This document shows positions 166 to 17,735 of a stretch of DNA of 64,000 nucleotides, in pieces (position 1 is the stretch's first letter; every line of letters begins with the position of its first letter). A program made the translations under genes and the position numbers. The notes under the pieces were generated by a model. That model had not been told where the DNA came from. It did no database searches and saw only the letters and a list, made by a program, of their open reading frames with translations. The DNA is from Paragorgia papillata (taxonomy: Eukaryota; Cnidaria; Anthozoa; Scleralcyonacea; Coralliidae): assembly GCA_035771165.1 (NCBI GenBank), contig JAWNZC010000112.1:837033-901032 (forward strand), read 5' to 3'.

Positions 166-171
166 ATAAAC

Positions 172-942: not shown

Positions 943-948
943 ATAAAC

Positions 949-2142: not shown

Positions 2143-2147
2143 AATAA

Positions 2148-2363: not shown

Positions 2364-2384
2364 ACTAGCTTGGCTTTGCGGATT

Positions 2385-2891: not shown

Positions 2892-2903
2892 AATAAACAA
2901 AAA

Positions 2904-3077
2904 ATGGGGTTAAAAAACTCAAAAGCTAAAAATTTAAAGCACAAAGTTATTATTATTCCAGTACAAAAAGAAGGAATGTTTTCTCCCCTTCCAATGACAA
3001 TACAAATCCCACCCCCAAGAACAAAAAGGGTCCATAAAAATTTTAAAAAACATTTTCAGTTAATAGAGTATGGGTGA
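2904..3077 (+). CDS. Small basic protein with N-myristoylation signal
   Basis: 57 residues, missed by usual length cut-offs. It starts MGLKNSK, matching the N-myristoylation pattern MGxxxS, and continues with a hydrophobic patch (VIIIPV), a proline stretch (IPPPRTKR) and a basic C-terminal half. The start follows AAATAAACAAAA. The stop is 8 bases before a perfect 8-bp hairpin. It could be a membrane-anchored tegument-like or matrix-like protein. A second MGxxxS protein is encoded at 12521-12775. Confidence 0.6.
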   Translation: MGLKNSKAKNLKHKVIIIPVQKEGMFSPLPMTIQIPPPRTKRVHKNFKKHFQLIEYG

Positions 3078-3085
3078 AAATGAAA

Positions 3086-3107
3086 TCCTATCCATAACAG
3101 GATAGGA
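3086..3107. terminator. Gene-end hairpin 1
   Basis: Perfect 8-bp stem (3086-3093 with 3100-3107) and 6-base loop, 8 bases after a stop codon. One of eight such hairpins at gene ends in this element. Confidence 0.65.
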
Positions 3108-3123
3108 ATTCAAATAAAAAAAT

Positions 3124-3348
3124 ATGATCGTAAACAGTTATGCAACCGAATGTGTTTTTAAAAGTGAAACCTGGTTTAATATAGGAAAGCTTATTTACCT
3201 TATCTCAAAAGGAAGTAATGAAGGATACAAACTTTGGTTACTGTATAGTCAATACGACCTTCAAAACTACAATGAAAACCATTGTTACCATCTTTGGTCA
3301 AATTTTGATTGTTTAATGCCAGAAGACTACTATGAAGAAGAAAACTAA
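3124..3348 (+). CDS. Stand-alone PriCT-2-like protein
   Basis: 74 residues. The pattern W-x2-IG-x-LIY, then EGYKLW, YSQYD, YNENHC and LWSNF matches the helical PriCT-2 module (W..vG..l, eG..lW..wS, y.e.eC...W) that normally links primase and helicase in D5-type replication proteins of large DNA viruses and plasmids. Here it stands alone, with an acidic tail (EDYYEEEN) and no primase or helicase domain. It precedes the capsid gene and starts after CAAATAAAAAAATATG. It may be a replication accessory factor or a relic of a larger protein; the family match is from pattern memory. Confidence 0.55.
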   Translation: MIVNSYATECVFKSETWFNIGKLIYLISKGSNEGYKLWLLYSQYDLQNYNENHCYHLWSNFDCLMPEDYYEEEN

Positions 3349-3369
3349 ACAAAATTTTTACTATAATAA

Positions 3370-4581
3370 ATGAATACCGAAAGAGAAGTTGAACTAATTC
3401 CTGGTTATAACCGTTTACACAAAAGTACAATAACCGGAGAACGAGCCCGAAATGTAATTACTTTCAACCCTAATTCGGCTAATGAAGGAGAAGTAATTTA
3501 CATTCACATTCCAAAACTTAAACCTGGAGCAACCTTAGTTCCTGACAAGATGTTTCTTCTGTTTGACTTTAAGAATAAAAATACTAAATCTTGGTTTAAC
3601 AACAACCTTGCAAAACAGCTACAAGAACGACTGGAAGTCAGGTTTGCAGGCGAAAAAGTTTACGACAACACAGGAGAAAGTCTTCTGGAAACATACAAGG
3701 ATTTGTGGATAGACAAACACGAAAGAGCCAATATGATCGAAGATGGTGTTGCCACAGAAAACCAAAGAAAACTTATTTCAAAATCTGATGATGCCTCTTC
3801 CGACTCATATGCAGCTGTTTATGGAACAAAACAACGAATTCAGTTGGGCAAAATTTTAAAGGACCACGGATTGTATGCTCCCCACAGCATGGCAAATGAC
3901 CTACAATATATTATTACATTGCCAAAAGCCACCAATATTATGAAAGCCCAAAGTAGACAATCTGTGGCTGGTTACTCTTTGGAGAACATCGAACTTGAGT
4001 ACGAAACCATTACAAACTTTTCCCTAGTTCAAGAAATAGAATCTTCCTACCAAGTGGGTCGAGCCCTTTCCTTCGAACATGTAACCCTGATGAAAACCTC
4101 ACCATGGGCTGCCGCAACAACTCTAATTAACGAAACCATTAATTTACCAAGAAAGAGCATGAAGGCTGTTGTAATGTTGTTTACAAAAGCTTCCAGAGAT
4201 GGATCAGAAGAGTTTGTTTACCCAAACATTGAGAATGTAAAAATTACTATTGAAGGAGTTCCAAACAGTATTTACTCCCAAGGAATTCCAAAACGGAGGT
4301 TGTTTGAAGAGGCTGAACGACTTTTCAGACAAACAAATTATCCCACCATCCAAGCTGAGGAGTTTTTCACAGATGACCAGTTTGCGCTTGTTGTAGATCT
4401 TCGTTCGATCAATGACAATGATGTGTATGGAGATGGTACCAGGCTTTTGACTACCCAATCCGGAATAATGTTAGAAATTAAGAAAAAGGCAACAACAACT
4501 GACCTTAAATGCCATGTTTTCATTCTTTCGGATGGACTCCTAAAAGTCCAAGGAGGAGCATTCCAGAGTGTAAATTACTAA
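3370..4581 (+). CDS. MCP: Major capsid protein, double jelly-roll
   Basis: 403 residues, typical for Polinton capsid proteins. It is recognised by the order of conserved blocks: N-terminal GYNRLH/ITFNPN, LKPGATLVPDKMFLLFDF, the middle LENIELEYETI-EIES block, and the C-terminal FFTDDQFALVVDLRS...GTRLLTTQSG strand set ending in QSVNY. Double jelly-roll proteins form trimeric capsomers of icosahedral capsids. It is followed after 7 bases by the packaging ATPase, the usual morphogenesis pairing. A decayed homologue with the same blocks lies at 58369-59619. The start is fixed by TATAATAAATG. Confidence 0.9.
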   Translation: MNTEREVELIPGYNRLHKSTITGERARNVITFNPNSANEGEVIYIHIPKLKPGATLVPDKMFLLFDFKNKNTKSWFNNNLAKQLQERLEVRFAGEKVYDNTGESLLETYKDLWIDKHERANMIEDGVATENQRKLISKSDDASSDSYAAVYGTKQRIQLGKILKDHGLYAPHSMANDLQYIITLPKATNIMKAQSRQSVAGYSLENIELEYETITNFSLVQEIESSYQVGRALSFEHVTLMKTSPWAAATTLINETINLPRKSMKAVVMLFTKASRDGSEEFVYPNIENVKITIEGVPNSIYSQGIPKRRLFEEAERLFRQTNYPTIQAEEFFTDDQFALVVDLRSINDNDVYGDGTRLLTTQSGIMLEIKKKATTTDLKCHVFILSDGLLKVQGGAFQSVNY

Positions 4582-4588
4582 AATAAAA

Positions 4589-5242
4589 ATGGAAACCCTT
4601 AAACGATGTGAAAACCTTAAAGAAAGTGAAGAAAGTGAAACCCAAGTCCAATATCTTCCCAAACCATTTAATATGATCATTGTTGGGATGACAAGTTGTG
4701 GGAAAACCCACTATTTGCTAAAAATGTTAGAAAAAATTCCCAAAAAATTTGAAAATATATTTTTAATTTGTCCTACTTTTGAATGGAACAAAACATATCT
4801 TGAATGGGAACACCTTAATGATCCAAGATTTTTTGTTATTCCTTGCGACCAAGACGAGTCCGAGGATTTTTTAAAATATGTAGTTGACTACTGTAAAGGC
4901 ACCCCAAGCCTAATTATTTTAGATGACTGTGCTTCAGGACAGACTGTTAAAAACAGGACAAGTGAACTGGTTAAACTTGGTTTTGGTGCCAGGCATATGG
5001 ATATTAGTACAATAGTTGTTACCCAACAACTGACCAGCATTGCGAAACCATATCGGGAAAATATTTCCAAACTGGTTACATTTTACAACCCAAACAGAAA
5101 AGACATGCAGGTTATCTTAGATGATTACCTAGACATACCAAAAGAAAAAGAAAAAAAAATTAAAGAATTATTAAAATCCCAAAAATATTCAAGACTAGAA
5201 ATTAACCTGATCCATCCATACCACCATACAATAGTAGTGTAA
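4589..5242 (+). CDS. Genome-packaging ATPase, FtsK/HerA-like
   Basis: 217 residues. Walker A is GMTSCGKT at about residues 33-40; Walker B is LIILDDC at about 108-114. TQQL after a strand (about 150) fits the sensor region, and ISKLVTFYNP follows as in Polinton/adintovirus ATPases. It would drive DNA translocation into the capsid. An N-terminal extension encodes copies of the element's cgaagtgaaac-like repeat. It is adjacent to the capsid and penton genes in a + strand block. The start context is AAAATAAAAATG. Confidence 0.9.
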   Translation: METLKRCENLKESEESETQVQYLPKPFNMIIVGMTSCGKTHYLLKMLEKIPKKFENIFLICPTFEWNKTYLEWEHLNDPRFFVIPCDQDESEDFLKYVVDYCKGTPSLIILDDCASGQTVKNRTSELVKLGFGARHMDISTIVVTQQLTSIAKPYRENISKLVTFYNPNRKDMQVILDDYLDIPKEKEKKIKELLKSQKYSRLEINLIHPYHHTIVV

Positions 5243-5257
5243 AATTTACAGTAATAA

Positions 5258-5911
5258 ATGAGGAACCTAAGAATCTTGCTTAAAAATGGAGAGACAACTG
5301 TTAAATTTGAAGATCCTTTAATCATTGAAGACACTAAAATGTTAGTAAAAAATGCAACAGTGTTTTGGAACTTTAACAACATAACAAGTCCAACATATAT
5401 TATGCATGGAACAAAAAAAGTTAGTTTCAACAATGGTTATTGGACTGTTGGCATGGTTATGGAAAGATTAAAGGAAAATGAAATAAAATCTGAGTTGTTA
5501 CCTTACAGCTGTAAAATTAAAATATTACCAACAGAAAATCTTTCATTGTTAAAACTTGGCCCTTTGCTAGGATTTCCAGAAACAACAATAATTAAAAAAG
5601 GAGCAAGCCAAGACAGTCCAGAAACAGTCAACATAAATCTTGGAATGAGATTTGTATGCATAACTTGCAACATGATTGATGGAACAAAAACTTCTTTTTC
5701 TGGAAAACGGGATAGAACAGCCGCAGTTCTCCCAATTACAACAAAACAAATATTGAAGGGGTCTGTTGAAAAGTTTGATAACATTAATTCTATAGCCATG
5801 TTGGACAATGGAATTTACAACGAACTTAAATTTAAAACTGATAATAATGTCGGCGACATTCTTCTTGAAATCTTTTTATGTCCAATTAATTTTGATCCTG
5901 AAAAAAATTAA
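5258..5911 (+). CDS. Minor capsid (penton-like) protein
   Basis: 217 residues, matching Polinton pentons in size and position, directly after the ATPase. Visible hallmarks are NGYWTVGMVMERLKE, LGPLLGFP and the INLGMRFVCITCNMID strand followed by a G-K/R-rich turn, then a C-terminal strand block. Pentons are single jelly-roll proteins that close the fivefold vertices. The start context is GTAATAAATG, 15 bases after the ATPase stop. I am confident of the family and less so of details of the fold. Confidence 0.8.
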   Translation: MRNLRILLKNGETTVKFEDPLIIEDTKMLVKNATVFWNFNNITSPTYIMHGTKKVSFNNGYWTVGMVMERLKENEIKSELLPYSCKIKILPTENLSLLKLGPLLGFPETTIIKKGASQDSPETVNINLGMRFVCITCNMIDGTKTSFSGKRDRTAAVLPITTKQILKGSVEKFDNINSIAMLDNGIYNELKFKTDNNVGDILLEIFLCPINFDPEKN

Positions 5912-5924
5912 ACTATAATAAAAC

Positions 5925-6101
5925 ATGATTGATCAAAATTTAGAAACCATTAAAGGGGTGTTAAATGACATGGTAAACTTAAAAGTAACTTTAAAAAAAA
6001 ATAAAAACCAAAATTTAACAAACTTAAAAGTGGTGTTAAATGACTTAATAGCAGCTTTAAAGAACTATGTGAAAGTAGTAGAAATTTTGAAAATCTTCTA
6101 A
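5925..6101 (+). CDS. Short coiled-coil protein with internal duplication
   Basis: 58 residues, below usual ORF cut-offs. Two related halves (around GVLNDMVNLKVTLKK and VVLNDLIAALKNYVK) with heptad-spaced Leu/Val/Ile predict an amphipathic helical hairpin or coiled coil. The start follows CTATAATAAAAC, the element's signature. A hairpin follows 23 bases after the stop. Function unknown. Confidence 0.5.
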   Translation: MIDQNLETIKGVLNDMVNLKVTLKKNKNQNLTNLKVVLNDLIAALKNYVKVVEILKIF

Positions 6102-6124
6102 AAACCATTGTACCCTCTAATAAC

Positions 6125-6153
6125 ATTTTGTAATTTTTTAAAAACTACAAAAT
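6125..6153. terminator. Gene-end hairpin 2
   Basis: 8-bp stem attttgta/tacaaaat with a 13-base loop, in the 75-base gap before the next gene. The stem sequence is nearly the same as that of the hairpin at 7351-7377. Confidence 0.5.
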
Positions 6154-6176
6154 ATTAAAATTTTTTACCTTAATAA

Positions 6177-6401
6177 ATGAATAAGAACGAAGTTTTAAAT
6201 GACTTGTATCAAGCAGCATTAATTACACTTGCAGCTGTTGGAACAAGCATGGTTTTCAAAAAGGTATTAGGACAATCTCTAGCGGCACCAGCCAGTCTTA
6301 AAGAAACAGCCAAACTTGGAGTAGCTGTCTCTGTTGGATTATTTTCAGTAAAAATGGCGCAAGAAAAAGGATACTTACCCAAAAATTTGGATCCAAAGTA
6401 A
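6177..6401 (+). CDS. Small hydrophobic membrane protein
   Basis: 74 residues with two hydrophobic Ala/Val/Gly-rich helices (about 13-30 and 45-62) separated by a short loop, and a charged C-terminus. Small proteins of this design (LNDLYQAAL start, K-rich end) recur in Polintons, so I regard it as an element gene rather than chance. It may be a membrane-active or inner virion component. Start context CCTTAATAAATG. Confidence 0.6.
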   Translation: MNKNEVLNDLYQAALITLAAVGTSMVFKKVLGQSLAAPASLKETAKLGVAVSVGLFSVKMAQEKGYLPKNLDPK

Positions 6402-6461
6402 GTTTTTTAACTTAAATTGAATTTTAATTTTTAAAATGATAATAATAAAATAGAGAAAAGT

Positions 6462-6890
6462 ATGAACGGATTATTTGAAAAATTGGAACAACCAATTACA
6501 TTAAAATTTAAACAAACCAAATGCTTTGGGTTAAAACCTAAAACATTTAAAGGAAAGAAAACAAACGGGTTTAGACTGACTATCCAACTAAACCAAGAAA
6601 ACTGTGAAAAGGTTCTAACAGCCTGGAGCCAACTCAAGCCAACCAAAGAAACACCACTTTTTGGTGATTTTGATAACATTCTTTGTTTAAACATCAAAGA
6701 AGATGATCTAAGCGTGGAAGAAAGGAAAGATCTCGAAAAACTGTGCCATGTTGACACGAAAGTGGAAATTGGCCAGGTGTTTGTAAACAAGAACAAGGAA
6801 AGGTTCCCAGTGTTCCAAATAAAATTCCTAAAAAAGGTTGAGGGACCACCACGGGAAAGACTCCAAACCACAGGTGAAATGAGCGACTAA
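6462..6890 (+). CDS. Unknown protein, possibly nucleic-acid binding
   Basis: 142 residues, soluble, Lys-rich at the N-terminus (KFKQTKCFGLKPKTFKGKK), with a C-terminal strand-rich part (TKVEIGQVFVNKNKERFPVFQIKFLKK) and an acidic tail. The alternating strands could be an OB-type fold, as in single-strand DNA-binding proteins, but no signature proves it. The ATG has the weakest version of the start motif: AATAATAAAA lies about 14 bases upstream. A hairpin follows 16 bases after the stop. Confidence 0.5.
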   Translation: MNGLFEKLEQPITLKFKQTKCFGLKPKTFKGKKTNGFRLTIQLNQENCEKVLTAWSQLKPTKETPLFGDFDNILCLNIKEDDLSVEERKDLEKLCHVDTKVEIGQVFVNKNKERFPVFQIKFLKKVEGPPRERLQTTGEMSD

Positions 6891-6906
6891 ATATAAAAAA
6901 ATGTAC

Positions 6907-6927
6907 CCATATCCAAAAAGGATATGG
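6907..6927. terminator. Gene-end hairpin 3
   Basis: Perfect 8-bp stem ccatatcc/ggatatgg with a 5-A loop, 16 bases after the stop of the preceding gene and 15 bases before the next start. Confidence 0.65.
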
Positions 6928-6942
6928 AAACATAATTAATAA

Positions 6943-7341
6943 ATGGCATCAATGGTAGCAGGAGGATTGTTTAACGCAATTGCCTTTGCAGGTGCTGGAT
7001 ATTTGTTCCAATCATTTAACAAAGATGGTTTTGCCAAAGAGGCAAAAAGACATAATTTAGCAACAGAGGAACTCCAAAAAGCTCATGAAAAGTTTTTTGA
7101 AAAAGAAATTAAAAGAAAGGACAGACAAAGAGAACTACAGGATGAAATAAGGACTGCGGGGTACAATATGCAAGATACATCAAAAGCATTCCAAGAACTT
7201 CATAAAATTTTACAGGACATTCCAACCGAACCAAAACTTGAGGATTTTTACCAACCAAGTGAAGAAATGGAAAAATACCAAATTATTGCTGTAACACTTT
7301 CTGGAACAGGTGCTGGATGGTTGTTGTCAAGATTTGTTTAA
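6943..7341 (+). CDS. Membrane-anchored coiled-coil protein conserved in Polintons
   Basis: 132 residues. Hydrophobic N-terminus (about 1-23, GGLFNAIAFAGAGYLF), then a long charged helix (about 30-90) with the pattern KRHNLATEELQKAHEKF, and a short C-terminal hydrophobic segment (about 112-131). The 'RHxLAxExLQxAxxxF' helix with flanking membrane segments is a design I recall from many Polintons, so a virion or membrane scaffold role is likely, but the exact function is unknown. Start context TTAATAAATG. It converges with the minus-strand gene at 7389. Confidence 0.65.
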   Translation: MASMVAGGLFNAIAFAGAGYLFQSFNKDGFAKEAKRHNLATEELQKAHEKFFEKEIKRKDRQRELQDEIRTAGYNMQDTSKAFQELHKILQDIPTEPKLEDFYQPSEEMEKYQIIAVTLSGTGAGWLLSRFV

Positions 7342-7350
7342 ACATTAAAA

Positions 7351-7377
7351 ATTTTGTAACTTTTTGGGTTACAAAAT
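7351..7377. terminator. Gene-end hairpin 4, shared by convergent genes
   Basis: Perfect 10-bp stem attttgtaac/gttacaaaat with a 7-base loop, in the 47-base gap between convergent genes. It could serve both. Confidence 0.7.
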
Positions 7378-7388
7378 ATTAAACCTAT

Positions 7389-8156
7389 TTATTCTTTTTG
7401 TTTTTGGATCTTTGATAACATATACTTAAAAATTTGAAAACCTGTTTTAGGGAATTCTTTAACACCTTCAAAATTTAAAATATACCCTATTACTCCAAAA
7501 GATTTTTCAGGATTTTTAAATGGTGGTATTGTTAAAGTTTTTAAAAGATCTCTTTGGCATATTGCAAGAATAACATACAATACATGTTTTTTCATGGGAT
7601 GTCTTGTAACCAAACCTTGTTCTTTAAGGGTTTCAAAAGATTCTTCAAAATATTCTATAAGTTTTAATACAAGAAATTTTGGTTCTTTTTGGGGTGGTAT
7701 TGGGTTTTGGGTTGGGCAAATACAGATACACATAGGTTTGTCGCATTTACACAAACATCTACGGTATACAAAATAGTGTTTTTCACATTCACACAGCCAT
7801 CTGCAAGCACAAGTCAAATATTTATTTTTCTTTGAGTAAGGGTTAAGGGAAGGTTTTGCTTCATGTTCTGGTAACATTTCTAGGTACATTTTCTTTAAAC
7901 TTCTAACGTTAAGGCTGTCCACCACCACCCCTTTAGGCACCCCTTTAGGAAGTTTCCATTCCCGGTTCCAATCCAAATAACCCTGTTTTAGCAATGCTGA
8001 TCCTTCCACTCCACATTCTGGGCAAAATTCATGTCCATCCATTTCTTCCAGTCTTTCCCCACAACAACGGCTGGCATTAGGGCCATTTTTATGTTTTTCC
8101 AAGAAAAGGTTTAAAGTTGGTAAAATTTTGATGTTAATATTTAACATTTGAGTCAT
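7389..8156 (-). CDS. Cys-rich zinc-binding protein, unknown
   Basis: 255 residues. An N-terminal treble or ribbon-like cluster (CC..., then CPECG, about 31-50) is followed by a dense central Cys cluster (about 116-147, CACRWLCECEK... CLCKCDKPMCICIC). Both suggest metal binding. The C-terminal third is helical. A TFIIB-like zinc ribbon at the N-terminus would fit a viral transcription factor, but no cyclin-like repeats are evident, so this is only a possibility. It lies 8 bases downstream of the 455-residue gene on the same strand; its start context is TTATAATAAAAGGAATG. Confidence 0.6.
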   Translation of the reverse strand: MTQMLNINIKILPTLNLFLEKHKNGPNASRCCGERLEEMDGHEFCPECGVEGSALLKQGYLDWNREWKLPKGVPKGVVVDSLNVRSLKKMYLEMLPEHEAKPSLNPYSKKNKYLTCACRWLCECEKHYFVYRRCLCKCDKPMCICICPTQNPIPPQKEPKFLVLKLIEYFEESFETLKEQGLVTRHPMKKHVLYVILAICQRDLLKTLTIPPFKNPEKSFGVIGYILNFEGVKEFPKTGFQIFKYMLSKIQKQKE

Positions 8157-8164
8157 TCCTTTTA

Positions 8165-9532
8165 TTATAATGATAAAACTTTAAAAATTAAAAAAACAAG
8201 TGTTATGGAAGCTCCAAAAACTTCTGGTAATCTGTTATCATTCCTTGTTATTTCTGAGGGTGTAAAAATTCCTTCTTTGTATGTTTTTTTCCAAGTTTGG
8301 GCCAAGGATTTTTCCGGGGTTGTTAAAAATGTTGGCAAATTTTTTGAAGATTTTTTCAAAGAAGATTTTTCTAAAGAAGGTTTAAAATTTAAATTTAAAT
8401 TTTGGTTAAATCCAAGCACCATTTTGTCAGTAGCCATGGTAAGAACATTGTTAAACCCAACCACAGGATTAATTAAAATTTTAAGATCGCTAGGAATTAA
8501 AATTAAACCAGGAGACACAGCAAAATTTAAGACAACAGTGGTAGACTTTATTGCCTGCCTCATATTACTAATGCTTACAGTAATATCATCCTGTGCTATG
8601 GTATCTTCCATTAACTTTTTAAATACCTCTTGTGTTTGTAAACTTTTAGCACCTTGTCCAACAATAACCCACCTTGTTTTTGCCTGGGCCCCCAACACAC
8701 AGTAAACAAAAGATTCTAAGGATTGTTGAAATAGCTTTTGACCCAATGGTGTAAGACCATTGCTGTTTTTTGGAACAAAGTGTTTGAAATCATTGGGATG
8801 TCTTTGGGAAGTGGATACCAACTCCTCGTATGTGTTTACCCTTCCAAAACTTTTTTGCTCCAACTTTACATACCTAACTTCATATCCAAGGTCCTTCATA
8901 TCTTGTGTAAAATCTTCCGGACTCTGTGTAGAATTACTTATTTTCTGGATCCAAACATCATTAGGGTTATGTTGTAAAATTTTTACAACATCACTTGTGA
9001 GATATCTTTTAAGTTTGTTGGGATGCTTTAAAAATCTTCTCACCTGGAAAACATAATGGTAATGGGCAATACTTGTTAAAAAAGGAGACCTAAATCTTTC
9101 AAAACCGTTCTTGAAATGATTATTAGAAATACCGCACAAATAGCTCGCGACATAACTTGCCGCAATGGCAGTAAAATATGGAATAGTAAGAAAGTCATTT
9201 AAGTCTGGGTTTCTTTGTTTAGTAGGTGGTTGAAATGATGAGTCTATTGGATCCAAGTCCAAAACAAAATTTTCCTTTTTGTTAACAAATAGTATAACTC
9301 TGTTTAGGTTTACTGAACATTCTGGTTGTTTTGAAAAACTCTGGACAGTTCCATGAATTCCCCAACCTTTTGGCCAGTATAAATATTGTGTGTAATTTTT
9401 GTTCCTTTTAAACTCATCACTTTCGGTGTCCAATAAAAATTCATTCTTTAAAAAAAATATCTTTTTTCCAAATTTAAATCTTGTCAGATCAGCATTTGGG
9501 TAAGTTTTTAAAAACTCTGTCTTAAGGTCCAT
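8165..9532 (-). CDS. Large protein of unknown function with C-terminal membrane segment
   Basis: 455 residues, the largest unassigned protein in the element. A soluble body contains an Ala-rich helical block (about 122-135, AIAASYVASYL), a Gly/Ala-rich region (about 286-300) and an FAVSPGLILIPSD block (about 352-365). The final 20 residues are a hydrophobic tail anchor. The FAVSPGLILIPSD block is reminiscent of a conserved Polinton protein I cannot name with certainty. It is first in a two-gene minus-strand unit and shares an 18-base divergent promoter with integrase. Confidence 0.6.
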   Translation of the reverse strand: MDLKTEFLKTYPNADLTRFKFGKKIFFLKNEFLLDTESDEFKRNKNYTQYLYWPKGWGIHGTVQSFSKQPECSVNLNRVILFVNKKENFVLDLDPIDSSFQPPTKQRNPDLNDFLTIPYFTAIAASYVASYLCGISNNHFKNGFERFRSPFLTSIAHYHYVFQVRRFLKHPNKLKRYLTSDVVKILQHNPNDVWIQKISNSTQSPEDFTQDMKDLGYEVRYVKLEQKSFGRVNTYEELVSTSQRHPNDFKHFVPKNSNGLTPLGQKLFQQSLESFVYCVLGAQAKTRWVIVGQGAKSLQTQEVFKKLMEDTIAQDDITVSISNMRQAIKSTTVVLNFAVSPGLILIPSDLKILINPVVGFNNVLTMATDKMVLGFNQNLNLNFKPSLEKSSLKKSSKNLPTFLTTPEKSLAQTWKKTYKEGIFTPSEITRNDNRLPEVFGASITLVFLIFKVLSL

Positions 9533-9550
9533 TTATTATTTAAATAAAAA
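9533..9550. promoter_or_regulatory. 18-bp divergent start region
   Basis: Two start codons face away from each other across 18 bases (tattatttaaataaaaaa). Each strand carries the AATAAA-type start motif: AAATAATAAATG leftward and AAATAAAAAATG rightward. All signals for two opposing genes must fit in or overlap this gap. Confidence 0.7.
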
Positions 9551-10532
9551 ATGGATGATAAACTTTTACTCATTGACCTTGAACTTCGGGATATATATTA
9601 CAATCCTGTAACAGGTTACCAATCCATGGAAAAACTTTACCAAACAGCATTAGATCAAAATGTTGAAGGTGTTTCAAGAAAGTTAGTCCGGGAGTGGTTA
9701 CATTACCAAAGGGTATTTACATTGCACAAACCTATTAGAAAACCAAGAAGATATCAAAAAACATTTGTTAAAAATCTTGCTGACCAACTTCAAATGGATC
9801 TTGTTGATATGGCTAAATTTGGTTCTGAAAATAATGATCAAAAGTGGATATTAACAGGAATAGAAATTTTAAGCAGATTTGGATTTTCAGTTCCAGTCCA
9901 CAGAAAAAAACACAGTAAGTATGGTTGCTGGTGTTTCAAAAATGTTGTCTGAATTTAAGGAAAGATTTGGCAAATATCCAGAAACAGTTCAGTTTGATGA
10001 AGGGAAGGAATTTTACAATGTGGGGGTAAAAACCCTTTTAAAATCTTTTGGCATCCACTATTTTTCCGCAAGATCAGAACGTAAAGCAGCTGTTGTAGAA
10101 AGATTTAACCGGACATTAAAAACCAGGATGTGGAAATATTTTACATTTACAGGAAACAAAAAGTGGTTAAATATTCTTGATAAGTTTACCGCAAGTTACA
10201 ACAACACAACACATAGCACAATTAAAATGAAGCCAAAAGATGTTAATGATGAAAACCAATCCAAAGTTTTTTTTACACTGTATGGAATTCCGCCCCTTGA
10301 AGGTAGTGTAAAACCTAAATTTAAAACTGGAGATCATGTAAGAATACAAAAATATAGAAAAAATTTTTCAAAAGGATATGATCCAAATTTTACGGATGAA
10401 ATTTTTACGGTGTCAGCTGTTTTTAGGGGAAATCCTGTTATGTATAAAATTCGGGACTCTGATGAGGATATTTTAGGAAAATTTTACAGTGAAGAACTTG
10501 TTAAAGTTATTGGTACCCAAATAAATGGCTGA
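9551..10532 (+). CDS. INT: Retroviral-type (rve) integrase, frameshifted
   Basis: The N-terminal half (9551-9952 frame) contains the helical N-terminal region and the first catalytic Asp in QMDLVDM. The rest, in the frame 1 base later, holds the second Asp (QFDEGKEF) and catalytic Glu (VERFNRTLK), then an SH3-like DNA-binding domain (about 10300-10500). The frame changes in the neighbourhood of a run of seven A at 9904-9910. No chromodomain follows, unlike the second element's integrase. The product would insert the element into host DNA. The frameshift may be a mutation, an assembly error or programmed. The last 8 bases overlap the next gene. Confidence 0.85.
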
Positions 10533-11775
10533 AGCATTTGAAATGAAGGATTTAAATCCAAATGAAACAGAAGAAGAAGAACAAGAGCGTTTGAATGAAG
10601 AAGAGGAGGCGGAAACCAATTTAGATGAAACCAATCTAAATGAAAGTGTTGTAGAAGATTTAGTTTTTGGCGAAGCTGAAAATGATGAATTAAACAAAAT
10701 GAGGACTGGAGGTAAAGACTTCATAAAAAATATGAGAAAGGAACTTGGTAACATAAGAAGAAGAGAAACTTTTAAAAGAAAAAAATTCTTTAGAAAAAAA
10801 CTGGGTCTTGTTGTGAAAATTGGTAAGGCTAAGGAAAGTGCAGGCAAAACCTTAATTAGAAAAAGTATAATATTTACTGACCAGAACGGAAAAGAAGGTG
10901 GAATTATTTTTGACAATGTAAAGGTTATCGTTAGAGATGGTGATAGCGACAGATTTATATTAAACCAAGATAAAAAATTTGAGGAAAAAGTTAGAGAATT
11001 TCATGAGTTATATTTAAAAGCAAAAGAAGAACATAAAAACTCAGCAGATGGGGTTATCGAAGATCTTTTAGGTCTTCCACCAGAAAACATTGAACCTGAA
11101 GTTATTATCAACATTCGTGAAAATGTTGCCGAACAGCTGGGTGATGAAGTAACAATAGGGATGGATAACATTGAAACAAATGATGATGGAGAAATTAATG
11201 AAGAAGCTGGTGATAGTGCTCTTCGAAGTCTTGGTGGAACCATTAATGCAAAAGATTTGGGTGCTGTTGATATTAACAGAAAGTGGTGGAAAGATATAGC
11301 AGACAAAGAAAAAGATCCAGTAAAAAGAAGAAAGTTTAAGGAGGTTGAGGTTGTGTGCGAACTGAGGGCTGAACAACTTAGACTGGAGGCAAACATGGCG
11401 CCAGAAACTGAATATGTTAAAAATTTGCTTAGAGATAATATCCTAACAAAATTTGAAAGGTTTAAAGTATGGGCAAAAGAAAACATGGGTGCAACAGCTG
11501 CAATAGCTATTAGTATTGCTGGAATTATAACAACAGTAGTATTGGCTGGAGGAAAAGGAGTAGCAGCAGCTGCAAAGGCAACAGGAGCATTAGGAAAGGC
11601 TTTAGCAAAACTTGCAAAAACTGCTTTGCCTATATTGGTTCCAATTTTAAACATACTTGCAACTGTATTATCTTGGGGAGCAAAGGGAATAGCATGGTTG
11701 GCAAAAAATTTGTGGGTTCTTGCAATAGGGCTTTCCTATATTGTTTACAAAGAATATAAAGAAAGATACAAATAA
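10525..11775 (+). CDS. Acidic/hydrophobic Polinton protein, membrane-active candidate
   Basis: 416 residues. An N-terminal Glu/Asp/Asn-rich segment (1-60), a basic patch (about 72-95, RRRETFKRKKFFRKK), a charged middle, then FKVWAKENMGATAAIAIS (about 312-330) and a long Ala/Gly/Leu hydrophobic C-terminus (about 320-408) with several possible membrane helices and a positive end. The KENMG-AIAISIA block is repeated in a decayed homologue at 59640-61007, directly after integrase in both elements, so the pair is conserved. It may be a membrane-penetrating or core protein. The start overlaps the integrase stop. Confidence 0.7.
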   Translation: MAEAFEMKDLNPNETEEEEQERLNEEEEAETNLDETNLNESVVEDLVFGEAENDELNKMRTGGKDFIKNMRKELGNIRRRETFKRKKFFRKKLGLVVKIGKAKESAGKTLIRKSIIFTDQNGKEGGIIFDNVKVIVRDGDSDRFILNQDKKFEEKVREFHELYLKAKEEHKNSADGVIEDLLGLPPENIEPEVIINIRENVAEQLGDEVTIGMDNIETNDDGEINEEAGDSALRSLGGTINAKDLGAVDINRKWWKDIADKEKDPVKRRKFKEVEVVCELRAEQLRLEANMAPETEYVKNLLRDNILTKFERFKVWAKENMGATAAIAISIAGIITTVVLAGGKGVAAAAKATGALGKALAKLAKTALPILVPILNILATVLSWGAKGIAWLAKNLWVLAIGLSYIVYKEYKERYK

Positions 11776-11777
11776 AT

Positions 11778-12257
11778 ATGGAATTTGAAAAAGAAGAAGA
11801 ACCTAAAACTTTTGTCCAAAACCTTAGAGAAGAGCTTATCCGGCTTTCTGCTGAAAAGAAGATCAAATATTCGGAAAAATATCTTAAAAAGGCATCTAAT
11901 TCCGCACTAGAAAAAATTAAGTTTAATTACGACATGAAACAACAGGACAAAGTTAACAAACTGTTAACAGAAACTCTTATAACAAAATTCTCAGCATTAA
12001 TGGAACAGTTAGACCTAATCAAAGATGATGAAAAACTGGATGAAGAGTTGTTAACAAACAAATTATTTTGCGATGATGTTAAGACCTTGGTAAACAAAAT
12101 TTCGCCATATATTCCAATGGTTGGTTTGCTAACAGGTGGTTTAACAGTAATTAAACATGTTTGGGAAAAACCATTAAATAAAAATGTGGTACAAAATAGT
12201 AAGAATTCTCCTGAAAATGTCAATAGTGGCAATGTTGCTGATTCCAATAACAGTTGA
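11778..12257 (+). CDS. Coiled-coil protein with C-terminal hydrophobic block
   Basis: 159 residues. A helical charged N-terminal half is followed by an SPYIPMVGLLTGGLTVIKHVW block (about 110-130) and a polar Asn/Ser tail. The second element has a matching protein (57215-57775) with a near-identical SPYIPxxGxxxG...KHV block, so this is a genuine, conserved Polinton gene. The role is unknown; amphipathic helix plus hydrophobic block suggests membrane association. The start is 2 bases after the previous stop, in AAATAAATATG. Confidence 0.7.
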   Translation: MEFEKEEEPKTFVQNLREELIRLSAEKKIKYSEKYLKKASNSALEKIKFNYDMKQQDKVNKLLTETLITKFSALMEQLDLIKDDEKLDEELLTNKLFCDDVKTLVNKISPYIPMVGLLTGGLTVIKHVWEKPLNKNVVQNSKNSPENVNSGNVADSNNS

Positions 12258-12280
12258 GTTGCTATTACTTAAATTTTTGT

Positions 12281-12308
12281 TTTCCTAATCTTTTGTTGGA
12301 TTAGGAAA
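12281..12308. terminator. Gene-end hairpin 5
   Basis: Perfect 10-bp stem tttcctaatc/gattaggaaa with an 8-base loop, 23 bases after a stop and 13 bases before the next start. Nearly the same stem recurs at 12492-12516. Confidence 0.7.
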
Positions 12309-12321
12309 CTCTTTATAATAA

Positions 12322-12474
12322 ATGTGGTGGAATATTTTTAGTTGGATTAGAAAAAAAAGGAAAGATAGAAGAAACAAAAACCTAAGAAAAAGTTGGACCC
12401 TAAGAGAAAAAAAACTTGATATTGATAAAAAATGGTTTATAAACAGCTACGAAATCCCTCTAAAAAGTTATTAA
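12322..12474 (+). CDS. Tiny basic protein (MWW...)
   Basis: 50 residues in the canonical start context TTATAATAAATG. A hydrophobic, tryptophan-rich N-terminus (MWWNIFSWI) leads into a strongly basic stretch (RKKRKDRRNKNLRK). It is bounded by hairpins on both sides, so it looks like its own transcription unit. A small core or membrane-tethered DNA-condensing peptide is possible; this is inference from charge and size only. Confidence 0.5.
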   Translation: MWWNIFSWIRKKRKDRRNKNLRKSWTLREKKLDIDKKWFINSYEIPLKSY

Positions 12475-12491
12475 AACTGAAAAGTTGTTAG

Positions 12492-12516
12492 TTTCCTAAT
12501 CTTGTTGGTTAGGAAA
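12492..12516. terminator. Gene-end hairpin 6
   Basis: 8-bp stem tttcctaa/ttaggaaa, 9-base loop, only 4 bases before the next ATG. The AAATAAAATG start motif overlaps its 3' arm. Confidence 0.65.
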
Positions 12517-12520
12517 TAAA

Positions 12521-12775
12521 ATGGGGAATTCTAAAAGCAGCATCGCTAAAGCTTCACGAAAACCAAAAGAAAAATTTAACAAAAACCATATTACAAAAAA
12601 GGGATTCCAATTTGGGATAAGTTTTGGGAAGGAAGATTTAACAATGGAGGGAAATATTCAAATAGGGTGGACAAACAAAATAGTAAAAAATTATTCTTGT
12701 GTTTCTTCTTCACCAAAAACTTCGCCAAAATCTTCACCAAAATTTTCGCCAAAAACTTCGCCAAAACCAATATAA
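12521..12775 (+). CDS. Myristoylation-signal protein with SPK repeats
   Basis: 84 residues. Starts MGNSKSS (MGxxxS, a good N-myristoylation signal), then a Lys-rich part, a Gly-Phe-Ile strand-like middle and five S-P-K type repeats at the C-terminus. SPK repeats occur in DNA-binding histone-like tails. It resembles a lipidated matrix-type protein. The repeat DNA also gives a false N-terminal extension of the next gene in another frame. Confidence 0.6.
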   Translation: MGNSKSSIAKASRKPKEKFNKNHITKKGFQFGISFGKEDLTMEGNIQIGWTNKIVKNYSCVSSSPKTSPKSSPKFSPKTSPKPI

Positions 12776-12782
12776 TAAAACA

Positions 12783-13202
12783 ATGGAAATGTTTAAAATA
12801 AGAATGGATGAAAGAAGAAAATTTGGTGAAAAATTAAAAAAAATTCGTGAGGAAAACCCTATTTGCAACCACCCCAAATCAGAGTTAAGAACCCTAGCTA
12901 AAAAAATTGGGGTGAAGGGGGCTGCCAAAATGAACCTTAAAACACTCTGTGAAAGCCTTAATATTCCATTGGTTAGGAATGAAATCTTTGACAGATGCAA
13001 CAGAGAGCAAATTAAAAATCCTGTTGGAATAACATTTACAGGTTTGGATGGGAAAAAAACAAAATTCCATAGTATTTACAGAGCAGCATCCTGCCTAAAT
13101 AAAAATCCTAGTTGTATTCCATATTACATAAGGAAAGGAACATTCATCATTTACAGGGGGAAGGTACAAACTGTTAGTCGGAGTTCTTCCGAAGTGGAGT
13201 GA
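12783..13202 (+). CDS. DNA-binding protein with SAP-like and NUMOD-like modules
   Basis: 139 residues from ATG 12783, chosen because AATATAATAAAACA lies directly upstream; an in-frame upstream start at 12699 would read through the previous gene's repeats. About residues 30-63 (KSELRTLAKKIGVKGAAKMNLKTLCESL) resemble a SAP-type helix pair. About 80-125 (GLDGKKTKFHSIYRAASCLNKNPSCIPYYIRKG) resemble the NUMOD helix-turn-helix module of homing endonucleases. No nuclease domain is present, so a transcription or replication DNA-binding role is likely. The 3' end is made from the element's cgaagtgaaac repeat. Confidence 0.6.
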   Translation: MEMFKIRMDERRKFGEKLKKIREENPICNHPKSELRTLAKKIGVKGAAKMNLKTLCESLNIPLVRNEIFDRCNREQIKNPVGITFTGLDGKKTKFHSIYRAASCLNKNPSCIPYYIRKGTFIIYRGKVQTVSRSSSEVE

Positions 13203-13237
13203 AACCCTCGAACGAAGTGAGAACCTTCATTCTTCAA

Positions 13238-13265
13238 ATTTCCTATATAAATTTATATAGGAAAT
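13238..13265. terminator. Perfect 28-bp palindrome, gene-end hairpin 7
   Basis: 14-bp arms, no loop (atttcctatataaa and its complement), 35 bases after the stop at 13202. Confidence 0.65.
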
Positions 13266-13335
13266 GCAGCGAGAAAGGGACCGAAAAAGGAATAAACACT
13301 AAAATCCGAAAGGCTTAACTTCAACAGGATATTTG
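13264..13335 (+). pseudogene. Duplicated fragment of the polymerase 5' end
   Basis: The sequence gcagcgagaaagggaccgaaaaa followed by ccgaaaggct...aacttcaacagga repeats, with small deletions, 13551-13618 inside the polymerase gene. It stops after about 12 codons and is not a gene. It lies in the 290-base stretch before polB, of which the last 60 bases are almost pure A/T. Confidence 0.75.
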
Positions 13336-13491
13336 AAAACATAGGTAAAACTACAGTACCAAAAACAAGTTAGTTTAAAAAGGAAGTATAATGTTGTTTG
13401 GATCCTTTATTAGTATATACTTTTTTAAATAATTTTTTTAAATCGATTTTTACCTTTAAGTATTTTAATAATTTTTTTAACACTATAATAA

Positions 13492-16400
13492 ATGGAAACT
13501 GACACTAAACTTTTGGAAAAACGGGAAAATGCCCGTTTAAGAAAACAACGGCAGCGAGAAAGGGACCGAAAAATGAAGCCGTTTAAACCTGAAAGGCTCG
13601 CTAAACTTCAACAGGAAAAGGAGTTTAGAGCAGCCAAAAAAGAAGCCAAAAAGCAGGAACAGACTGCCAGGAAAGAAGCAAGGAAACAGGAACAGGTGGC
13701 CAGGAAAGAGGCAAGAAAAGCAGAACAGATTGTCAGGAAGGAAGCAAAAAAAGAAGAGAAGAAACAAGAAATTTTAAGGTGGAATAAAAAATGGAAAGGA
13801 ACTGCTAAAACCGCTAAGACCAGACAAGTCCTTGGAAACAAGCTTGGAAAAATTTTTAACAGAAAAACAAGGGAATTCAAAAAACTAAGAAAAACAGAGC
13901 CAAAACTCATTAGAGATTTCGCTAATGGGAAAGCAGCTTTGTATGAAATTTCAGGACAGGGATTTAAAGATCCTGCGGTATTTTTAGAGGTAACAACACC
14001 AACTGTTAAGAACCTAATTAACAGTGTTGAAAACTCAAAGAAAGTAAAAACAACACTAATATGTAAACTTGTAAAGTATGATTATGAAGCTGGATGGGAA
14101 GATGTTGAAGAGTTTTACTTTACCTCCCATATGAAAGCAATGACGACAGAGGAAGATGTTAGAGAACATTATGAAATGATGAAAAAAGAGATGCTTGAAA
14201 ATTTGGCTGCCCACCAAAAAAAGGGATCTGGATGGGCAATAAGATCTGTGGAAAGTTTACACATCTCTATGACAAAATATAGACCTTTAAACGGTAAGGG
14301 TTTCAAACCCCTTCCAAAAGTCATTCAGGACAAAAAGGCTATCATTAATCCAAAAAACAAGGATAACAACTGTTTCCTATATGCTGTTGCAATAGCCGAT
14401 ATGTTGAAAGAAAATTCAGGGCTACAGCATTTAGAAAGATGTGGAGATAACGTAAAAGCTCAGATTGAAAAGTACAACATTAAAGGACTGGAATTTCCTC
14501 TTAAAATTAAGAATATCCCTAAGTTTGAAAAGATGAATGAGAGAAATGTTAATGTCTTTAGTTTTGATTTTGAGATACAAAAGGTTTTCCCAATGCAAAT
14601 AAGTAGGGCTAACCATTCAAATGTTGTAAACCTATTCTTGAATAAAAACCATTACAGTGCCATAAAGAACAAAGGCAAACTATTTACAAGCCAAGAAAAC
14701 AGCCATAAAGGTAAAAAGTTTTACTGCGACTTTTGTATAAACCCATTCACCACAGAAGTCAAAATGCTTCAACATAGGGAAATCTGTAAAATCCATGATG
14801 CCCAGGTCCAAATATTTCCTACAGAGGGTAAGAATGACATCATGGGGTGGGGTGAGAAGGATTATAAGAAAACACAAGATGTTCCCTTCATCATTGTGTT
14901 TGATTTTGAGTGTTTCTTAGAACCATTGGATACGGTGGAACAAAGTGAAGACAAGAGTTTTACTAAGAAATACCAAAGACATAATCCTAGTGGTTACTGT
15001 TACCAGGTTATATGCTCGGATCCAAACATCTACCCAGGAAAAGTTGTAAGCTACACCAAGAAACACGAGCATGAGGATATTGGAAAAATGTTTGTTGAAG
15101 CTTTACAAACTGAGGCTAAGGAAATCTGGGAAGACTACTTAAAAACACCGAAACCAATTATTATAAGTGAGGCTCAAGAAAAAGAATTCAAGTCAGCTGT
15201 AAACTGTTATGTTTGCGGGGGAGAGTTAGGGAAAGATAGGGTAAGAGACCATAACCATCTTAATGGAGAATACAGAGGACCTGCCCATAACATCTGTAAC
15301 TACTCAATGAGTAATGCCAAACATATTCCTGTGCTGGCCCATAATAGTATGAATTATGATATGCATCATATCATTAAAAGTTTGGGTGAAACAGAAGGTA
15401 CAATTACTTGTATACCAAAGACAGACGAAGAGTATATCAGCGTTAGTAAAAAGATATGGATGAAAAATGGTTGGAAAAGATTAGCTGATGGAAGTCAAAA
15501 AGTAAAGTGGTTTCCTTTAGAACTAAGATTTCTGGATTCATTAAAATTCATGGCAAGTTCATTAAGTTCTCTTGTTAATAACCTGGATTCAACAGCTTTC
15601 GTGTATACAGAAAAAGTGTTTAAAGACTATCCAAAAGAGCATGTAGACCTGCTAAAGAAAAAGGGAATATTTCCCTATGATTTTATGATAGATCAAAAAA
15701 AGCTGGATTATCCACAACTTCCAGCCAAAAAGGAGTTCTACTCAAAACTGAATGGAACTGGTATTTCAGATGAGGATTATGCCCATGCTCAGAATGTTTG
15801 GAAAACCTTTGAATGCAAGACAATGGGAGACTACCAGGGTTTGTACAACAAACTGGATACTGTTCTTCTGGGAGATGTAATTCAAAATTTCAGAAAGACA
15901 AGCAAAAAAACTTATGGGATTGACCCAATGTGGGCCTACACAAGTCCTGGTTTGGCTTGGAATTCCCTACAAAAGATGGGTCAAAAGTTGGAACTATTAA
16001 CAGAGCCTGACATGTACCTATTCTTCGAAAACAGTATTCGTGGTGGGATCTCGACAATTACTCACCGAGAAGGTAACGCAAACAACAAGTATATGAAAGA
16101 ATACGATCCAGAGCAGGAAAGTTCCTTCATCCCATATTTAGATGCTAACAACCTATATGGAAATGCAATGTCAAAACCTCTTCCAATAGGGGGATTTAAG
16201 TGGATGTCAGAAGAAGAGTTGGAGAACTGGGAAAAGTATCTTGTGGAAACCAAAGATGGGGAAGAGGGAGAAGGATGCATGCTGAAAGTGGACTTGGAGT
16301 ATCCAAAAGATCTACATGATCTCCACAATGATCTTCCCTTCACAGCTGAAAGAGTTGAGATTAATAAGGTAGAAAAACTGGTGCCAAATCTTAACGGTAA

Positions 16401-17385
16401 AAAAAACTATACTCTCCACTACCGCGCATTAAAGCAGTGTTTGAAATACAAGTTAAAACTTTTGAAAATCCACAGAGGAATTAAGTTTGTGGAGAAGGCT
16501 TGGATGAAACCCTTTATCGACCTTAACACAAGGTTGAGGACAGAAGCCTCTAACGACTTCGAGAAGGATTTCTACAAGTTAATGAACAACTCAGTCTTCG
16601 GTAAGACTATGGAGAATGTTCGTAACAGAGTAGATATCCGGCTTGTCTCCTGGGCTGACCAGCTTGAAAAGCTTGCAAGAAGGCCAAATTACAAGTCCAT
16701 TAGCATATTTAATGAAAATTTGGGAGCTGTCCATATGAAGAAAACTTATGTTAATCTTAACAAGCCAATCTTTACAGGAGCTGCCATCCTGGATTTAAGC
16801 AAGATTACCATGTATGATTTCCACTATGGCTACATCAAACCAAAGTATGGTCCTAAGGCACAGCTGTTGTTTACGGATACGGACAGCCTTTGTTACGAGA
16901 TCAAAACAGAAGATTTCTTTAAGGACATTTCTGGAGATGTTAAAACCCACTTTGACACCAGTAACTTTGGTAAGTCTCACCCAAGTGGTATAGAGTGTGG
17001 GGTAAATAAGAAAGTTCCTGGAATGATGAAGTCAGAGACTGGAGCAAAACAGATTAAAGGGTTTGTTGGGTTAAGAGCGAAGTTGTATGCTATTAAGATG
17101 GCAGAGGAGAAAAACCCCAAAACTGGACTGATGGAATGTAAAGAGGAGAAGAGATGTAAGGGAATTAAGAAAAGTACTATTAAGGATATCAAGTTTGAGG
17201 ATTACAAGAAATGCTTACACTCAGGGAAAAACCTAATGAAGGGAATGAATACCTTTAGAAGCTACCAACACAAAGTTTATACCATCCATATGAACAAGAT
17301 TGCTCTTAACTCGGATGATGATAAGAGAGTTATTGGAGAGGATGGAATTTCAACCTTGGCAATTGGGCATTATAGAACTAAGTAA
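13492..17385 (+). CDS. polB: DNA polymerase B, protein-primed type
   Basis: 1297 residues. A basic, repetitive N-terminal coil (about 1-100, copies of RKEARKQEQ) is followed by a Polinton-type N-terminal region (NCFLYAVAIAD at about 293; a C2H2-like motif at about 410-432). The 3'-5' exonuclease motif FDFE lies near 468, a Cys/His module CYVCGG...VRDHNHLNGEYRG near 573-600, and palm motifs follow: A DANNLYG (about 884), B KLMNNSVFGKTMENV (about 1029) and C DTDSLCYE (about 1129). The TPR-type insertions of protein-primed enzymes fit the spacing. It would replicate the element; intact throughout. Start context CACTATAATAAATG. Confidence 0.95.
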   Translation: METDTKLLEKRENARLRKQRQRERDRKMKPFKPERLAKLQQEKEFRAAKKEAKKQEQTARKEARKQEQVARKEARKAEQIVRKEAKKEEKKQEILRWNKKWKGTAKTAKTRQVLGNKLGKIFNRKTREFKKLRKTEPKLIRDFANGKAALYEISGQGFKDPAVFLEVTTPTVKNLINSVENSKKVKTTLICKLVKYDYEAGWEDVEEFYFTSHMKAMTTEEDVREHYEMMKKEMLENLAAHQKKGSGWAIRSVESLHISMTKYRPLNGKGFKPLPKVIQDKKAIINPKNKDNNCFLYAVAIADMLKENSGLQHLERCGDNVKAQIEKYNIKGLEFPLKIKNIPKFEKMNERNVNVFSFDFEIQKVFPMQISRANHSNVVNLFLNKNHYSAIKNKGKLFTSQENSHKGKKFYCDFCINPFTTEVKMLQHREICKIHDAQVQIFPTEGKNDIMGWGEKDYKKTQDVPFIIVFDFECFLEPLDTVEQSEDKSFTKKYQRHNPSGYCYQVICSDPNIYPGKVVSYTKKHEHEDIGKMFVEALQTEAKEIWEDYLKTPKPIIISEAQEKEFKSAVNCYVCGGELGKDRVRDHNHLNGEYRGPAHNICNYSMSNAKHIPVLAHNSMNYDMHHIIKSLGETEGTITCIPKTDEEYISVSKKIWMKNGWKRLADGSQKVKWFPLELRFLDSLKFMASSLSSLVNNLDSTAFVYTEKVFKDYPKEHVDLLKKKGIFPYDFMIDQKKLDYPQLPAKKEFYSKLNGTGISDEDYAHAQNVWKTFECKTMGDYQGLYNKLDTVLLGDVIQNFRKTSKKTYGIDPMWAYTSPGLAWNSLQKMGQKLELLTEPDMYLFFENSIRGGISTITHREGNANNKYMKEYDPEQESSFIPYLDANNLYGNAMSKPLPIGGFKWMSEEELENWEKYLVETKDGEEGEGCMLKVDLEYPKDLHDLHNDLPFTAERVEINKVEKLVPNLNGKKNYTLHYRALKQCLKYKLKLLKIHRGIKFVEKAWMKPFIDLNTRLRTEASNDFEKDFYKLMNNSVFGKTMENVRNRVDIRLVSWADQLEKLARRPNYKSISIFNENLGAVHMKKTYVNLNKPIFTGAAILDLSKITMYDFHYGYIKPKYGPKAQLLFTDTDSLCYEIKTEDFFKDISGDVKTHFDTSNFGKSHPSGIECGVNKKVPGMMKSETGAKQIKGFVGLRAKLYAIKMAEEKNPKTGLMECKEEKRCKGIKKSTIKDIKFEDYKKCLHSGKNLMKGMNTFRSYQHKVYTIHMNKIALNSDDDKRVIGEDGISTLAIGHYRTK

Positions 17386-17399
17386 AAATTAAGTTTAAG

Positions 17400-17424
17400 A
17401 TTTGTATTCAAAAAGAATACAAAT
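17400..17424. terminator. Gene-end hairpin 8, shared by convergent genes
   Basis: 10-bp stem atttgtattc/gaatacaaat with a 5-A loop, midway between the polB stop and the stop of the convergent zinc-finger gene. Confidence 0.7.
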
Positions 17425-17432
17425 TTTTAATT

Positions 17433-17681
17433 TTAGCATGTCCTGTTACCTTTTGTTCTTTTTATATGGGATTTTAAATGAGTATTTAGTTCCTTTTTTG
17501 TTTTAAAGGTTTTTGAGCATTCAACACATTCCTCTATTAAGTTTAGTTTTTCTTTATGAACAACTTTTACATGTAGTCTTAGTGCTGTTTTTGTTCCCAC
17601 TTCAAATTTACAGTCTTTACAAAAAAACCGAGACTTATTGTAGTAGGGATGAAATACAGGATTAATTTTTCTTTTAACCAT
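17433..17681 (-). CDS. Small protein with two C2H2 zinc fingers
   Basis: 82 residues. Finger 1 is CKDC...H...VVH (about 21-42) and finger 2 is CVEC...HLKSH (about 52-72), flanked by basic ends. Start context GAATAAAATAAAAGAGAATG fits the element's pattern on the minus strand. It is the rightmost gene and reads toward polB. Likely a DNA-binding regulator; C2H2 genes are cargo in some Polintons rather than core. No introns. Confidence 0.7.
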   Translation of the reverse strand: MVKRKINPVFHPYYNKSRFFCKDCKFEVGTKTALRLHVKVVHKEKLNLIEECVECSKTFKTKKELNTHLKSHIKRTKGNRTC

Positions 17682-17735
17682 TCTCTTTTATTTTATTCTC
17701 TCTTTGGTCTTTAAAACAAAAATTACAATTTACCA

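Follow-up and report, generated by a model that had tools for sequence, protein, structure and literature searches.

How does a Polinton-like element that lies in an animal genome mark the 3' ends of its messages? The question is raised by a stretch of 64,000 nucleotides from Paragorgia papillata (hereafter the window), in which eight hairpins stand shortly past stop codons. We favor, with moderate confidence, the reading that these hairpins are cis-acting RNA signals marking the 3' ends of the element's mRNAs. It is based on their position, their enrichment over shuffled sequence, their presence at both convergent junctions and the existence of similar junctions in some relatives.

Positions 1 to about 17,700 of the window belong to a Polinton/adintovirus-like element that extends beyond the window on its left. 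On the other side the sequence is host-like and includes a reverse transcriptase ORF (22956-24125), and a tRNA match is found in this host part at 46130-46201 on the minus strand (Rfam, gathering threshold). The genes of the element that concern us here are the following.

949-2142: collagen-like gene
3370-4581, plus strand: probable major capsid protein, 403 aa, a candidate by its place and spread
4589-5242, plus strand: A32-type packaging ATPase (Pox_A32, E 1.6e-17)
7389-8156, minus strand: zinc-ribbon-like protein, convergent with ORF 6943-7341 (plus)
9551-10532, plus strand: putative retroviral-type integrase in two overlapping frames (9551-9952 and 9879-10532), from rve_3 and its relatives
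13492-17385, plus strand: DNA polymerase B (polB), 1297 aa in an uninterrupted frame, from homology
17433-17681, minus strand: zinc-finger ORF, convergent with polB

Related loci were collected by scanning IMG/VR with polB alignments, which gave L001, L017 and L018 (the last on the same contig as L001), and from 15 contigs filed under prokaryote MAGs, which are taken as misbinned eukaryotic or viral DNA. The ORFs of all these relatives were called mechanically and are unchecked. The packaging ATPase is of the type expected of Polintons and adintoviruses. The integrase gene is frame-split and matches rve_3 at E 0.0082, weaker than the cut-off; both of its ORFs align with adjacent stretches of L006, and the second also aligns with the rve ORF of L001 (tblastn). 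The window polB itself has no PolB Pfam match, and among the best 60 of 96 matches of a profile of nine polB homologues to solved structures, nearly all of them zinc fingers, there is no polymerase. Its relative L013 (27% identity over residues 273-1295) matches DNA_pol_B_2 at E 1.1e-12. For residues 700-1297 the best 120 protein relatives stand at 53-61%, and an F54H12.3-like transposon protein from Stylophora is among the named relatives of polB. Judged from its homology to L013 and the named relatives, the window polB qualifies as a putative polymerase of the protein-primed type found in Polintons and adintoviruses. The capsid candidate has relatives in the octocoral Paramuricea clavata at 51-63% identity (among the best 120 of 239 matches). 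It has no Pfam match, a profile search of solved structures gave no useful match, and IMG/VR scans with the single sequence and with an alignment returned no relatives. A repeat with a period of 18 nt (GAAACCCTTAAACGAAGTGAA-like) is also dispersed over three sites, 2492-2566, 4574-4630 and 13183-13239.

The eight hairpins are listed here, with folding z-scores relative to shuffled sequence.

3086-3107, plus strand: perfect stem 8 bp, loop 6 nt, 8 nt past the stop of ORF 2904-3077; -15.8 kcal/mol, z -4.38
6125-6153, plus strand: weak hairpin, perfect stem 8 bp, loop 13 nt, 23 nt past the stop of ORF 5925-6101; z -1.49
6907-6927, plus strand: stem 8 bp, loop 5 nt, 16 nt past the stop of ORF 6462-6890; z -5.24
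7351-7377, no strand assigned: stem 10 bp, loop 7 nt, in the convergent 47-nt gap between 6943-7341 (plus) and 7389-8156 (minus), 9 bases from the stop; z -2.63 (plus) and -2.13 (minus), inverted-repeat test p=0.045
12281-12308, plus strand: stem 10 bp, loop 8 nt, 23 nt past the stop of ORF 11778-12257; z -3.96
12492-12516, plus strand: perfect stem 8 bp, loop 9 nt, 11 pairs counting G-U, 17 nt past the stop of ORF 12322-12474, similar to 12281-12308; z -4.59
13238-13265, plus strand: stem 12 bp, loop 4 nt, 35 nt past the stop of ORF 12783-13202, with the polB start 226 nt further on; z -4.25 for 13210-13275, which includes a second small hairpin upstream
17400-17424, no strand assigned: stem 10 bp, loop 5 nt, 13 pairs counting G-U, in the gap of 47 nt that separates polB (plus) from the zinc-finger ORF (minus), 14 bases from the stop; z -5.27 (plus) and -5.05 (minus), inverted-repeat test p=0.025

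An earlier, sequence-only reading had described eight hairpins at these places, 8-35 bases past a stop and two of them between convergent genes, and all eight are present with a perfect stem at such distances. It had given the stems as 8-14 bp; the lower bound stands, and the longest perfect stem is 12 bp, not 14, with 17400-17424 reaching 13 pairs when G-U is counted. The folding scan against shuffles that it had proposed came out in its favor, in that seven of the eight fold clearly better than shuffles (z -2.6 to -5.3), the exception being the weak 6125-6153. By folding energy alone the hairpins do not stand out: named hairpins make up six of the eleven 34-nt windows with the greatest stability, and the other five fall inside genes, two of these in collagen repeats. 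At the gathering threshold Rfam has no RNA family at the hairpins; at E<=5 over positions 1-18000 it gives three matches far under their gathering scores, and the hairpins again have no RNA family. The hairpins do not have the form of a bacterial-type intrinsic terminator, a GC-rich stem followed directly by a T run: the G+C of the perfect stems is half at most, and only one hairpin (17400) has at least 4 T directly 3' of the stem on the plus strand.

The enrichment was measured over the element part 1-17,681, where 25 mapped ORFs leave 954 nt of gaps and 16,727 nt of coding sequence. Perfect stems of at least 8 bp with a loop of 3-12 nt were counted and compared with dinucleotide shuffles (500 for the gaps, 20 for the coding sequence). 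The gaps hold 8 such stems against a shuffle mean of 0.89, and 4 stems of at least 10 bp against 0.12. They are seven of the named hairpins and a repeat at 2396-2415; 6125-6153 falls outside the scan because its loop is 13 nt. The coding sequence has 8 stems against 5.35 in shuffles, so that the density is 8.4 per kb in gaps and 0.48 per kb in coding sequence. Equal frequency inside genes had been named beforehand as the outcome that would speak against the idea, and this is not what we see. Palindromes in the window are thus concentrated after stops, as in the hairpin rule of giant viruses. Short stems do arise by chance pairing in AT-rich gaps, and 6125-6153 barely beats its shuffles, 18 of 200 of which fold equally well. 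As an account of the whole set, such pairing is extremely improbable, since none of the 500 shuffles of the gaps reaches the count of 8.

The arrangement of the gaps points the same way. Among window gaps of 20-300 nt, 8 of 11 fold better than shuffles (p<=0.05); the 60-nt gap 6402-6461 has no hairpin (z +1.26). Gap lengths are bimodal, with 12 gaps of at most 21 nt, none of which has a hairpin, and 10 gaps of at least 46 nt, 8 of which have a named one. Since there are two length groups and the hairpins occur in the long group only, the gaps appear to be enlarged for the structure. Counting each convergent pair as two, named hairpins serve 10 of 23 gene ends, and 11 of the other 13 have a gap of at most 21 nt or an overlap. 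Both convergent gaps contain a hairpin though neither has a gene start. This last point bears on the suggestion that each palindrome is a binding site in the DNA, an operator or part of a promoter, for the gene downstream. A hairpin does lie upstream of the next start in six tandem gaps, as that suggestion would have it. However, the two between convergent genes have no downstream start, one other has its next start 226 nt away, and 17 of the 23 starts have no palindrome upstream in their own gap. Moreover, 12492-12516 keeps its pairing by way of G-U, a better fit to RNA than to a palindrome acting as DNA. We therefore regard DNA sites as very unlikely.

The starts themselves have a different signal. 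ATAAA or AATAA is found within 16 nt before the ATG at 22 of 23 starts, compared with 4.1% of 611 other ATGs, and exact AATAAA precedes 12 of the 23. This start motif is AT-rich, lies at or just before the ATG and has a consensus of about ATAATAAATG; examples are at 9533-9550 and just upstream of 13492. It is similar to the poxvirus late initiator TAAATG. One feature from the table of starts and the motif counts is informative here.

9533-9550, no strand assigned: divergent gap with the start motif on both sides

Because both sides of this gap have the motif, the AATAAA-like sequence goes with starts and, in this gap, is not an upstream gene's poly(A) signal. The point matters for the view that transcripts end at ordinary poly(A) signals and that the hairpins stabilize or regulate host-made mRNA 3' ends as 3'-UTR stem-loops. 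The element adjoins host-like sequence, polymerase II could make its RNA, and ATTAAA or AATAAA is found at 3 of the 4 convergent gene ends. Against this, AATAAA-like motifs are tied to starts, including those of a divergent gap where no gene ends, and the gap after polB has a hairpin but neither AATAAA nor ATTAAA on the plus strand. On balance we think that host-made 3' ends are an unlikely explanation.

A further question is whether the hairpins are related to each other. It had been proposed that the stem sequences differ and that only structure is kept, and this is partly right. In pairwise tests with 300 shuffles each, 7 of 28 hairpin pairs are alike at p<=0.05, the strongest being 6125/7351 and 12281/12492 (p 0.003) and 7351/17400 (p 0.007), and the 13238 hairpin has no partner at this level. 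Scoring half-hairpins avoids double counting of the arms, and on this measure p<=0.05 is reached in 6 of 56 comparisons, the lowest value being 0.0055, followed by two of 0.0165. Since so few half-hairpins are alike, common descent of the hairpins is only suggestive. Should the 7351 and 17400 hairpins be copies, the two arms of the stem would have changed in concert. Dispersed palindromic repeats in gene gaps, REP-like or miniature mobile units that do not end transcripts, would explain the likeness of the 7 pairs, and duplicated palindromes could account for part of the pattern. Repeated units are also seen at some gene ends of L017, where one arm of a 24-bp inverted repeat described below recurs twice past polB (13279-13374). 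Yet the likeness between half-hairpins is marginal, the 13238 hairpin stands alone, the distance past stops is narrow and both convergent gaps are occupied. We consider repeats of this kind an improbable source of the hairpins as a set.

If the hairpins mark 3' ends, relatives of the element could be expected to have them too, and here the picture is mixed. The polB of L002, L009 and L003 is 44%, 52% and 40% identical to that of the window (the first two values in the order L002, L009). L002 and L009 each have one 12-bp perfect stem that extends across the entire interval separating two convergent stop codons, but they are hardly independent, because they are two contigs of the same MAG with polB 87% identical over the compared part. 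In L003 a stop is straddled by a stem of 16 bp. A scan of all 17 loci for stems of at least 12 bp found five, namely these three and two in L017 away from stops, where 40 shuffles predict 0-0.05 per locus. Convergent and divergent junctions were then taken from a list of our own making (13 and 12 junctions), from which those of L003, with its doubtful minus-strand ORF, and some others were omitted. A significant inverted repeat is found at 5 of the 13 convergent junctions: two in the window and one each in L002, L009 and L017 (p 0.005-0.015 for these three). The L017 junction (4759-4860) has a 24-bp inverted repeat with a 54-nt loop. The remaining 8 are not significant (the second of L002, p 0.308; two each of L001 and L013; and those of L011, L012 and L016). 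Since 3 of the 12 divergent gaps are also significant at p<=0.05, the inverted-repeat test alone is not specific to gene ends; the signal in divergent gaps is perhaps due to the start motif facing itself, which is near-palindromic.

All elements with a positive convergent junction have the start motif. It occurs at 5 of 5 starts in L002 (12% at other ATGs), at 3 of 3 in L009 (16%) and at 8 of 8 in L017 (10%), the starts of the latter two being hand-picked. The counts are 3 of 6 in L006 (11%), 4 of 14 in L001 (9%) and 0 of 12 in L013 (3%). At polB 3' ends, a hairpin at p<=0.05 is found in 4 of 14 (window, L005, L006 and L016), the sample being the window and 13 loci with a polB end, two of which, L007 and L010, are almost identical in this region. 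In 13 of the 17 loci (all except L008, L010, L014 and L015), 7 of 41 non-divergent gaps are significant at p<=0.05, compared with 8 of 11 in the window, and so gene-end hairpins are not a general Polinton rule. The comparison with related elements thus supports the sequence-only reading at the 12-bp convergent stems of L002 and L009 and does not extend it to most gaps. The trait is strong in the window, is found at some junctions of its nearest relatives, and is not general. L002 also has small G-rich hairpins by gene ends at about 3797-3820, 4380-4400 and 6302-6320, the first two of which are alike.

L002 and L009 have a zinc-ribbon-like protein adjoining polB (L002:3363-3833, L009:1580-1969) that is weakly like the poxvirus late transcription factor VLTF3. 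The L009 gene matches Pox_VLTF3 at E 0.014, under the cut-off, and its L002 counterpart has no match. When the L002 protein is modeled, at low confidence (pLDDT 64), VLTF3-like entries rank 3 and 5 and a TFIIB/Brf1-like entry ranks 8 among 105 viral fold matches; against the PDB, RNA polymerase II initiation complexes are among 37 matches, none of which is at E<=0.001. An IMG/VR scan with this protein returned nothing. The window protein 7389-8156 has no family and no protein match, its model is unusable (pLDDT 35), and its resemblance to the L002 protein covers 20 columns. A VLTF3-like factor was dropped as evidence because the matches are weak, the window protein is without a family and the likeness is limited to those columns.

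Hairpins at gene ends are known from several systems. In mimivirus, a viral RNase III-like enzyme cuts transcripts at hairpins and polyadenylation follows, as described in the available text of PMC4402537. The palindromes there stand right past stops and have no single common sequence, and the window resembles them in position, enrichment and convergent junctions. The window differs in that its stems are short (8-12 bp) and some of its hairpins are alike, and in that an RNase III-like enzyme and a poly(A) polymerase were not found in the visible part of the element. The mimivirus parallel drawn earlier therefore holds for the arrangement, and is weakened by the mixed support from relatives and the likeness of some hairpins. 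Marseilleviridae (Noumeavirus, Melbournevirus) have palindromes far more often between ORFs than in coding sequence, and in Noumeavirus, where palindromes lie mostly between ORFs, one 3' end is validated (available part of PMC5413956). Unlike the small Polinton-like element in the window, which has no match to either, Marseilleviridae encode RNase III and a capping enzyme. In the yeast cytoplasmic linear elements pGKL1/2, stem-loops near stops that have no common sequence motif direct 3' ends, as mutation and rescue demonstrate; the medians are 26 nt and -7.5 kcal/mol (PMC6211774, in the sections available). These stem-loops sit in adjacent ORFs or terminal repeats, whereas those of the window sit in gaps, and pGKL brings an RNA polymerase and a capping enzyme of its own, neither of which was found in the window element. 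At their 5' ends, pGKL messages carry untemplated A leaders (PMC6211774). Virophages (Sputnik, Mavirus) and transpovirons share hairpin signals and promoter signals with their helper, according to the available portions of PMC6723459 and PMC7031253, and transpovirons have a terminator hairpin and a late promoter (PMC7031253). While these have a known helper, the start motif of the window was matched to no helper virus. For Polintons, no report of gene-end hairpins is among the titles and abstract beginnings listed for the adintovirus, Maverick and virophage literature, where subscription journals are sparsely covered, and in the available text of a 2024 survey of Polinton-type viruses 'hairpin' occurs solely within a reference title (PMC11071308).

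We propose that the hairpins act as 3'-end signals in the following way. Each stem, transcribed into RNA, would fold in vivo right past the stop codon, and termination or cleavage would take place there, so that transcripts would end at the hairpins. At convergent junctions, a single palindrome would work for both strands. The result would be a compact punctuation of start motif, gene and hairpin. Pfam searches of the 24 complete ORFs in the visible element part gave no match to RNA polymerase, RNase III or poly(A) polymerase, and the RNase III-like nuclease and viral poly(A) polymerase that belong to the giant-virus hairpin rule are thus not among them. A trans-acting reader or the host must therefore be assumed. 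The reader would most likely be supplied in trans and be of the kind known from giant viruses or pGKL, either an RNA polymerase or a processing enzyme; alternatively, the host's own machinery may do the reading. A virophage-like element need not encode an RNase III-like nuclease or a poly(A) polymerase. A bolder possibility, which we regard as doubtful, is that this is an animal-resident Polinton with complete foreign punctuation (an initiator-like motif and 3' hairpins) read by a transcription machine of giant-virus type, i.e., a virophage-like satellite of a giant virus that infects a marine animal.

Together, the hairpin signals and the start motif can be tested on existing animal RNA data. 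If our reading is true, some Polintons would be transcribed by a system distinct from ordinary expression by the host, and this would bear on how Polintons are related to virophages, poxvirus-like plasmids and giant viruses.
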